In this document: piece by piece, positions 45,119 through 48,553 of the stretch
How positions within the stretch are numbered: position 1 is the stretch's first letter
Layout: the number at the start of each line of letters is the position of its first letter
Source: Sediminibacterium sp.
GTDB taxonomy: Bacteria; Bacteroidota; Bacteroidia; B-17B0; Aurantibacillaceae
NCBI GenBank assembly: GCA_030054095.1
Contig: JASGCO010000004.1
Location: forward strand, 62,001 to 126,000
DNA: 64,000 nucleotides
Direction: 5' to 3'
The notes under the pieces: generated by a model
Told to the model about the DNA's origin: nothing
What the model saw: only the letters and a program-made list of their open reading frames with translations
The model's database searches: none
Translations under genes and position numbers: made by a program

Positions 45119-47521
45119 CTAATTACCCTCATACGCAACAGAATCGGTAACGCTATTTCCTCCACATGGAAAAACAACAGGCCATAACTTTTGCCGGATT
45201 TCTTCCTTCTTTCTGATCTTTTCCTGTTTAATGGATTCATTTTGAGAAAATATCTGAAATTCTATTTCCTCCCATAAGTTACGAGTTGAAGCTATATTCT
45301 GCTGTTTTAATACCTCCTGTTCTTTAAGCGACAACTCGGCTAAGTTGACTTTATGTTGCCCCGTTTTAATATTCGTTAAGGTTTGTGCATAAAGTTTATT
45401 CCCTTTAAATCCGAGTACAAACGCATCATAAGTTACCAATTCATTCAGTTTTTCACTAAATTCTGAACCTGTTTGTGACATAAGTTGAAAACTTAGACCT
45501 TTTCCGGGCAATAAGTAAGCTATTACTCTATCGTATTCTTTTTCATGTTCCAGTTTAAGCGTTACAGGATTGTATATGATGATAGCCTGTTTACCGCTTT
45601 GCTGATCTTTATAATTAAGTGTTTCTCTGTTTGCCGTAGAAGTAAGCACATACGCGTCCAGATTTTTCCAGCCGGTACTCACTATGGTTGCGTTTAAATA
45701 ACGATCAGCCGGAGGGGGCGTTGGTTTGTACTCTTTACCCACCTGCCTGTAGGCTTCTTTTAGATTTAACTCCAGTTCTTTTGAAATGTTATCGTTGATA
45801 CGATCAAACTCTGACCATTCGTGCTTCTGAAATACTTCACGGGCTCTTTCTTTCTCTACTTGTTCTTTCGCATAGCTATCTTGCATAGTTTGAATTGCTG
45901 CTTGTTTAAACAAGGTTTGCTTGACGTGAAGGTATTGCGCTAATTTCTGCATTCGTGTATCGCTTATTTCAACGCCTCCATCGTGTCTTAAGTAGAATTT
46001 TTGAAATACGTTAGCCAGTTCCGGATTAATTCCCGACAACATTTCAGCAGCCATACTATCTAACTGGTACATTTTTTTATCAAGGTTACGGGTGTAGAGT
46101 TCTAATAGTGATGGGTTACAGGTTTTAAATATACTTTGTAAACGTTCTTCAAATGCTTTGGTAGCTAACAGGGTGCTGTTAAACTGACGATTATGAATCG
46201 CTTTAATCCGGTATGGCGCAATCTCACAGGTTTGTTGTCCCTTATCTGGAAACGACTCTGCTGAATTATTATCTATATATGCAATTATCGTATTTACATC
46301 TGTTTCTGTTAGCTGACCTTCAAATACAGTCATAGCCGCTTTACCATATTGCCGGTAAATTCTATTGGCGTATTCATCTCCGCTTTTGATGAGTTTTTCA
46401 TTATTGAGTATGAATTTAACCAGCCAATCACCTTTGGGAGCCCGTTGCGTAACACCTGCCAATCCGGGCCCTGTAAGCATTTGCGTACCGGCGCTATGGC
46501 AAACAGAACAATTTTGCCGGAATAGTTTTTCTCCTCGCATCAACTGTTGAGTGTTATTCCACGGCTGATCCCAATACTCCACATCATTAAAATCTACAGT
46601 TTTTGCTGAATCACCTGGTGCAGAGGGGGACGCTCCACATACATAAGAATAATAAATACTATCGGTTAACTGTTTGTTTTTGATATCAAAGCCCATTTTT
46701 TGCAATGTATCAAGAAAATGTGGCGGGTAAAAATTCAAGCTCATGATATCAACGGTGTGTAATGCGTTTTCCAGCTGACGCGGATTTATCCAGTTAATTT
46801 CACCGTTGGGTAAGCGCTGTCCGTCAAAGAGAAGCATGGGTTTACCTGGATTTATTTCCGGAATGCTGGCATGAATACCCTTACTTTGGTCTATGTCCAG
46901 GTTTTTAGCATTTTGCCGGGCGTTAACATAGAACATACCGCCTGTTTCCAGCAAACGGCCATTACTGAAGGTCGTTAACCCAGCTTTCATAATATCTAAC
47001 GGATTCAGGGCTTCTTTCACTTCTAGTTCTATTTCACCGGAGACAGCTTCAGCGGTGGCATTTAAAAAATTTTTAGCGGGAATGCTCAATAGTATTCCTC
47101 CTTTTGTTTCGATCACGGTATCTTTGCTTCCATCAATGGAAAAGATCTGAGATTCGAGGTACTTATCGGCGTTAGCCCATTGGCGTTGATTGCGTTCGTT
47201 TAGCTCGTAACGCAAATGGGTAGAGCTGTTGCCGGAAACGATCTGTTGTTTTATAACAACTATTATTCCTACTACAGCAATAGTTACAAGTGTAGTTAAG
47301 ACTATTTTTCTAATAATGGATTTAGTGCGGCCGGTTTTCAATCCTTTTTTAATGGCTTCTTTTTGTCCACTTCGAACAGCTCCCTGCATTAGCTCCTTAT
47401 AATCATCTAGTTGCTGACGCAAGTTTCTATCGTGTGCTAATTGTTTTTCAAATTCTGCTCTGGTCTTTGGATCCATCTGATTATTCAGATAATCCAGTAT
47501 ATACTGTGTTGTTTTATTCAT
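45119..47521 (-). CDS. Membrane anti-sigma factor with a c-type cytochrome domain
   Basis: 800 residues. The N-terminal 65 residues are a short cytosolic anti-sigma-type domain (YILDYLNNQMDPKTRAEFEKQL). One membrane helix lies at about 70-92 (IVLTTLVTIAVVGIIVVIKQ). Periplasmic part: a ZU5-like beta domain at about 120-220 (IETKGGILLSIPAKNF, GEIELEVKEALNPLDI). A class I cytochrome c then follows, with heme motif CSVCH at residues 338-342 and a probable axial Met in AAMTVFEGQLTETDVNTIIAYI. The remaining 370 residues are helical and unknown. It overlaps the ECF sigma gene by 8 bases, the usual sign of an anti-sigma partner. The heme domain in this position is unusual and suggests sensing of heme, redox state or a gas. 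Confidence 0.85.
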   Translation of the reverse strand: MNKTTQYILDYLNNQMDPKTRAEFEKQLAHDRNLRQQLDDYKELMQGAVRSGQKEAIKKGLKTGRTKSIIRKIVLTTLVTIAVVGIIVVIKQQIVSGNSSTHLRYELNERNQRQWANADKYLESQIFSIDGSKDTVIETKGGILLSIPAKNFLNATAEAVSGEIELEVKEALNPLDIMKAGLTTFSNGRLLETGGMFYVNARQNAKNLDIDQSKGIHASIPEINPGKPMLLFDGQRLPNGEINWINPRQLENALHTVDIMSLNFYPPHFLDTLQKMGFDIKNKQLTDSIYYSYVCGASPSAPGDSAKTVDFNDVEYWDQPWNNTQQLMRGEKLFRQNCSVCHSAGTQMLTGPGLAGVTQRAPKGDWLVKFILNNEKLIKSGDEYANRIYRQYGKAAMTVFEGQLTETDVNTIIAYIDNNSAESFPDKGQQTCEIAPYRIKAIHNRQFNSTLLATKAFEERLQSIFKTCNPSLLELYTRNLDKKMYQLDSMAAEMLSGINPELANVFQKFYLRHDGGVEISDTRMQKLAQYLHVKQTLFKQAAIQTMQDSYAKEQVEKERAREVFQKHEWSEFDRINDNISKELELNLKEAYRQVGKEYKPTPPPADRYLNATIVSTGWKNLDAYVLTSTANRETLNYKDQQSGKQAIIIYNPVTLKLEHEKEYDRVIAYLLPGKGLSFQLMSQTGSEFSEKLNELVTYDAFVLGFKGNKLYAQTLTNIKTGQHKVNLAELSLKEQEVLKQQNIASTRNLWEEIEFQIFSQNESIKQEKIRKKEEIRQKLWPVVFPCGGNSVTDSVAYEGN

Positions 47522-48062: not shown

Positions 48063-48242
48063 TCGTTTTTTACATTAATGGAAAAAAAACAAAAAGGTCA
48101 TCACTGACTTTTTATTTTAGTTCACTAATGTACTATCAAATTCAAATATAACACGACAACAACATATTAAACCCATTGTTTTCTGGCAACTCTTATGGTA
48201 CATAAACCCCTGCGCCAGGGATGGAACGGTCTGTCTGAGCTC

Positions 48243-48272
48243 TTTTACCGGCTTTTGTTCCTGCCGGTAAAA
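48243..48272. other. Hairpin next to the structured repeat
   Basis: Perfect 10-bp inverted repeat ttttaccggc / gccggtaaaa with a 10-base loop. It has a T tract upstream and A tract downstream, so it could act as a terminator on the minus strand in front of the sigma gene. Confidence 0.6.
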
Positions 48273-48312
48273 AGCGAGTAGTGACAGCCCGGCTTTTTAG
48301 AAGGGTCGTTAA

Positions 48313-48515
48313 ACCCAGATCGTGCATTAGAAATCCTATTACGAACAAAAAGGCCGATAAAATCTGAAGCTTCGCATCCTGGCACCAGCCCGCTCATAAA
48401 CCCACTGGCTTTATGCCGTTCATTCACCATAGTGGTGACTATGACTCAATCGCAAAAGTTCAAATTTTATCGGCCTTTTTGCTCTCACTACATATTTCTA
48501 ATGCACGATCTGGGT
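48313..48515. repeat. 203-base structured palindromic element (MITE-like or structured RNA)
   Basis: Perfect 22-bp terminal inverted repeats (48313-48334 and 48494-48515) enclose a second perfect 18-bp inverted repeat (48346-48363 and 48464-48481). The about 100-base apex has smaller hairpins: 48396-48414 (ATAAA..TTTAT, loop ACT) and 48424-48438 (TCACCA/TGGTGA). A diverged relative lies at 51298-51440. It has no coding content worth calling; short frames through it are by-products of symmetry. It could be a non-autonomous mobile element or a conserved RNA. Confidence 0.8.
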
Positions 48516-48517
48516 CA

Positions 48518-48553
48518 AATCTTTTCCAAAGTTCTTAAACTTTGGAAAAGATT
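48518..48553. terminator. Strong hairpin downstream of rseP
   Basis: Perfect 15-bp stem (aatcttttccaaagt and its complement) with a 6-base loop, 50 bases after the rseP stop. No T tract follows, so it may terminate with help of a factor or protect the 3' end. It ends 2 bases from the structured element. Confidence 0.55.

Follow-up and report, generated by a model that had tools for sequence, protein, structure and literature searches.

A nested inverted repeat lies at 48313-48515 of the window (the whole stretch of 64,000 nucleotides of Sediminibacterium sp. DNA that was analysed), and the question it raises is whether this symmetry belongs to a mobile element, to a structured RNA or to both. 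We consider it very probable that the locus is a non-autonomous transposon (MITE) with IS1380-family ends, whose inner hairpin has probably been selected as a single strand, most likely RNA.

Geometry and insertion site of the palindromic element

The original prediction described a perfect palindrome of 203 bases. Its parts are real: the outer arms (48313-48334 and 48494-48515; 22 nt) are 100% complementary, the inner arms (33 nt at 85%) hold a perfect 18-bp core formed by CAAAAAGGCCGATAAAAT at 48346-48363 on the plus strand and its partner at 48464-48481 on the minus strand, and an apex of 100 nt (48364-48463) separates the two cores. They do not, however, make up one perfect palindrome of 203 bp; the two arms, each perfect, are nested and split by an asymmetric internal loop. 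Within the window the outer arm is found at just these two sites, and its occurrence by chance is not expected. Folded as RNA, 48313-48515 reaches -89.4 kcal/mol, compared to -42.4 ± 4.2 kcal/mol for shuffled sequences (z -11), a stability attained by 0 of 200 shuffles.

Elements of this family are flanked by 5-bp repeats on either side of CCC...GGG, and the outermost A/T pair of the palindrome (48313/48515) is part of such a target duplication. Here TTAAA at 48309-48313 is matched at four of five positions by TCAAA at 48515-48519, so that the earlier statement that no target-site duplication was present has to be withdrawn. The element proper therefore spans 48314-48514 (201 bp), with its left terminal inverted repeat, CCCAGATCGTGCATTAGAAAT, at 48314-48334 on the plus strand and the complementary right one at 48494-48514 on the minus strand. 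The family's folding strand is the minus strand here: with the covariance model described below, the minus strand scores 116.8 bits and the plus strand 68.1 bits (match C3:110314-110514, minus).

When the flanks of the element are joined across it, they align over the junction to another locus of the same genome (L022) without a MITE. A dispersed repeat makes up both flanks, with its left part at 48206-48293 (14 further matches in this genome) and its right part at 48518-48553. In at least four of its copies (L248, L249, L251 and L253) these parts adjoin without interruption, hence the target of the MITE was itself a copy of a different repeat. This host repeat is GC-rich, has many copies in the genome and ends in a perfect 16-bp hairpin, CTTTTCCAAAGTTNNNNAACTTTGGAAAAG. 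At L008, likewise, a MITE is inserted into a second dispersed repeat. This second repeat, GATTGAAGCGGCAGCC..., which lies at L008, L004 and L099, has thereby also served as a MITE target. The empty site is thus intragenomic and paralogous, while no orthologous one could be resolved: downstream of rseP, the relatives checked have no element, and the divergence of their intergenic regions prevents alignment (rseP at most 77% identical), and G044, a copy-rich genome, has a different neighbour.

Two minus-strand genes flank the element, one for an M50 protease (rseP-like) and the other for a protein with sigma-70 region 2. Beside the sigma gene, 45119-47521 on the minus strand encodes a protein of 800 aa that has a cytochrome c domain; elsewhere in the window, a cobalamin riboswitch (RF00174, 112 bits) occupies 1187-1370 on the minus strand. 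Nested inverted repeats resemble retron RNA in outline, but none of the three neighbouring genes (sigma factor, RseP-like M50 protease and cytochrome-domain protein) is a reverse transcriptase, and the copies of the family are scattered, carry IS1380 ends and are flanked by duplications. We dropped a retron-type or other reverse-transcriptase-linked RNA on account of these neighbours and give it practically no weight.

The folding strand of the element is co-directional with rseP, and the 3' end of the rseP mRNA would carry the hairpin if transcription runs through; an effect on this mRNA is conceivable. Across the family, the element shows a weak tendency to share the orientation of the upstream gene (45/72, p=0.04), which is absent from the Campylobacterota elements described below (13/30), so we claim no host regulatory role. 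A 3'-UTR role deduced from gene-orientation bias was rejected on the same grounds.

Copies of the family and their IS1380-type ends

The genome that contains the window (4.63 Mb in 74 contigs, 99.9% complete) gave dozens of matches to the element by sequence search, and 51 matches to the terminal motif AACCCAGATTATGCATTAG at three mismatches or fewer, compared to 0 for the reversed control. A covariance model made from 21 copies and used for genome scans found the element in at least 25 distinct places of this genome once both-strand duplicates were merged, in 14 of 40 genomes of the same genus and in 20 of 395 genomes of an evenly drawn class-wide sample. The most copy-rich genome is G044, with at least 70 copies among the matches listed. 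The element is therefore not single-copy; it is short (201 bp), multicopy and dispersed, as a MITE should be, and it has relatives in other genomes. Together with the intragenomic empty site and a related autonomous insertion sequence, these observations bear out the suggestion of a MITE-like mobile element.

A typical copy is about 166 bp long. The window copy is longer: besides the conserved apical hairpin, its apex holds an extra insert of roughly 35 nt that most copies lack and that L013 shares, and three other copies carry a different insert. No frame is open consistently through most copies, and the element has no transposase gene inside. Nearest-neighbour identity between copies reaches 96% in the window's genome and 100% in G044, from which the former look older.

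Complete insertion sequences of the IS1380 family with the same ends as the element, CCCAGATTATGCATTAG, are present in two genomes. One of them, in the same-genus genome G049 (L081, 1088-2488), is a 1.4-kb element with the same 17-bp ends and TTCAA on both sides, and its 437-aa protein, at 268 bits against a cut-off of 180, is a transposase of the IS1380 family. The second (L228; 267 bits against the same cut-off of 180) comes from a Cytophagales genome in which MITEs with these ends occur as well, and its flanking 5-mers differ. In G044 a transposase gene, 91% identical, lies beside such an end. No recognisable IS1380 transposase turned up when the window's own genome was searched, hence its copies are probably stranded.

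We collected 110 distinct elements bounded by these ends, taken as CCC...GGG, from this genus and a scan of public genomes. Perfect 5-bp target duplications flank 73 of the 110, compared to 0-2 of 110 at shifted control positions, and the commonest are TTAAA and TTTAA. The same IS1380-type ends surround unrelated interiors at L114, L119, L128, L132, L138 and related loci, in Cytophagales, Ignavibacteria, Omnitrophota, Campylobacterota and Methylacidiphilum. Some elements are barely more than two terminal repeats, at 39-52 bp (L083, 506-544; L092, 524-562; L049, 1503-1553; L134, 6251-6292; and L135, 3053-3104). All of these have perfect 5-bp duplications, they come from more than one phylum, and they are possibly collapsed hairpins.

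From these ends and duplications we infer mobilisation in trans. A DDE transposase of the IS1380 family would have recognised CCCAGATTATGCATTAG at both ends and moved the MITE into AT-rich, mostly intergenic targets (TTAAA, TTTAA, TTCAA), duplicating 5 bp. The window copy would have landed in an older dispersed repeat between the rseP-like gene and the sigma-factor gene, and the transposase was probably lost from the genome later.

Covariation and strand bias in the hairpin

The original prediction also held that the internal hairpins suit a structured RNA. For the Bacteroidia set, the 21 copies were aligned in the orientation that corresponds to the window's minus strand. Standard pairs fill 94.1% of cells in the fold, compared to 38-47% when the partners are slid, and compensatory change on both sides is seen at 32 of 55 pairs; none of 500 shuffles reached any of these measures. 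A larger alignment agrees on covariation, yet it weighs less, having been fitted to the structure. Unpaired segments and the apical hairpin are also conserved, and recur in class-wide relatives. The element evolves over its whole length as one hairpin, the shape of which seems to be maintained on one strand only. In 42 of 42 copies the minus strand folds more stably than the plus strand.

Strong folding and covariation are also what a structured RNA that belongs to the host, be it a riboswitch, a terminator or a small RNA, would display without being mobile. This explanation is nevertheless very improbable in view of the scattered copies, target duplications, transposon ends and interrupted host repeat, and Rfam, at gathering and relaxed thresholds alike, gave no usable match to the element, nor any near threshold. 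Compensatory change, and the strand-biased G-U pairs described next, are better seen as a second property of the same mobile element, so that the hint of a structured RNA is borne out in part.

Because shared ancestry inflates the number of pair changes, these were counted on a tree, over those register positions where most copies have a Watson-Crick pair. This choice is independent of the strand read, although the register itself began from the fold of the strand tested. In the inner stems, changes from Watson-Crick to G-U outnumber those to A-C by 77 to 30 (p=6e-6; by column, p=5e-4), whereas the outer terminal stem shows no bias (28 vs 29). The double-stranded site for the transposase lies in the outer stem, so this contrast is consistent with a second constraint, on a single strand, that acts on the inside only. 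At unpaired sites of this set, on the strand tested, C->T changes occur at 37 per 1000 and G->A changes at 18 per 1000, and such a mutational bias could be the source of part of the G-U excess.

A still stronger strand bias is found in Campylobacterota elements, with the same ends and unrelated interiors. A model built from seven of them matches 36 of 298 genomes of that order, and 25 of 35 elements have perfect duplications. Arm-to-arm alignments of the 35 elements, strand ignored, contain 301 G-U and 25 A-C pairs, and events counted on a tree number 67 and 13 respectively (p=6e-10). The modelled strand folds better in 35/35 elements, a figure to be read knowing that the strand of each was picked by the model, which favours the better-folding one. 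Individual elements give counts such as 10:0 and 12:0, and by our estimate, which is not a simulation, these far exceed the bias to be expected from picking whichever strand folds better.

Could an ordinary MITE, devoid of any RNA or single-strand function, look like this? Its arms would be alike through the need of the transposase for matching ends, together with template switching by DNA polymerase, which is described as copying one arm of a quasi-palindrome onto the other (PMC3820800, PMC8604942). The window copy offers an example. In the copies compared with it, a patch of the inner stem is mismatched, while the left inner arm of the window copy reads GGCCGAT where the family has GTCCTTC: four changes within seven bases make it match its own right arm exactly, in complement. 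Template switching may well have made this perfect inner stem, to judge from this single copy. Families from Cytophagales and Ignavibacteria with the same ends, moreover, show no consistent strand bias. Yet template switching yields Watson-Crick pairs on both strands and no strand-specific excess of G-U, and unpaired segments and the apical hairpin are conserved in class-wide relatives. We regard an ordinary MITE as possible, if distinctly less likely than an element with a selected inner hairpin.

A further alternative is that the selected form is a hairpin of single-stranded DNA, such as a recombination strand, loosely like integron attC sites. The bias in Campylobacterota is independent of the orientation of neighbouring genes, which suits DNA, and G-T is better tolerated than A-C in DNA, as G-U is in RNA. 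The related transposase, however, is a DDE enzyme of the IS1380 family, a class that acts on double-stranded DNA, and the 5-bp duplications fit such an action; we find this alternative rather unlikely. We thus prefer RNA as the folded form. The interior is maintained as one long hairpin with a G-U bias on one strand, so a single-stranded form, most likely RNA, was probably selected. A broader proposition is that in IS1380-ended palindromic elements of at least two phyla, with unrelated interiors, selection acts on the full-length hairpin in single-stranded form, be it RNA or DNA. Such an element would be more than a deleted transposon: a structured nucleic acid that is mobile and whose fold matters for its own spread or persistence. 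On this we are evenly divided.

Comparison with known elements

Folding is frequently claimed for the transcripts of MITEs, but palindromic ends make it trivial, and selection on the fold is accordingly hard to show. A comparison is provided by the unrelated interiors between the same ends: strand-specific retention of G-U is seen in two families but not in two others, and single-strand selection can thereby be told apart from mere symmetry. The cross-phylum set of IS1380-ended MITEs is defined here; neither this set nor any IS1380-derived palindromic MITE was found in the literature searched, which consisted of open-licence papers.

The closest parallels in form are ERIC / RU-1 and NEMIS (Correia) elements, MITEs of 100-200 bp that are intergenic and multicopy, with terminal inverted repeats and long stem-loop transcripts; RNase III cuts NEMIS RNA, and ERIC changes mRNA stability depending on its orientation (PMC2229807, PMC10969869). 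The present element is like them in size, terminal inverted repeats, intergenic location and copy number, but belongs to neither: sequence, hosts and ends differ, the ends here being those of a complete IS1380 element and the duplication being of 5 bp, while theirs is of the TA type. YPAL / RU-2 of Yersinia is similarly a palindromic intergenic repeat, of ~168 bp, yet its inverted repeats are internal, it is not A+T-rich and it has no assigned transposase (PMC2229807). MITEPye1 of Paracoccus yeei is likewise a MITE that has inverted and direct repeats and is predicted to form a long stem-loop as RNA, attributed to an IS family by its ends; it differs in being assigned to IS1182 rather than IS1380 and in its low copy number, and the available portion of that paper reports no covariation test (PMC11578231). 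As for the IS1380-family insertion sequences themselves, the element has no transposase gene and no relation to their interiors was seen, but it shares its 17-bp ends with both complete copies, L081 and L228, and its 5-bp duplication with L081.
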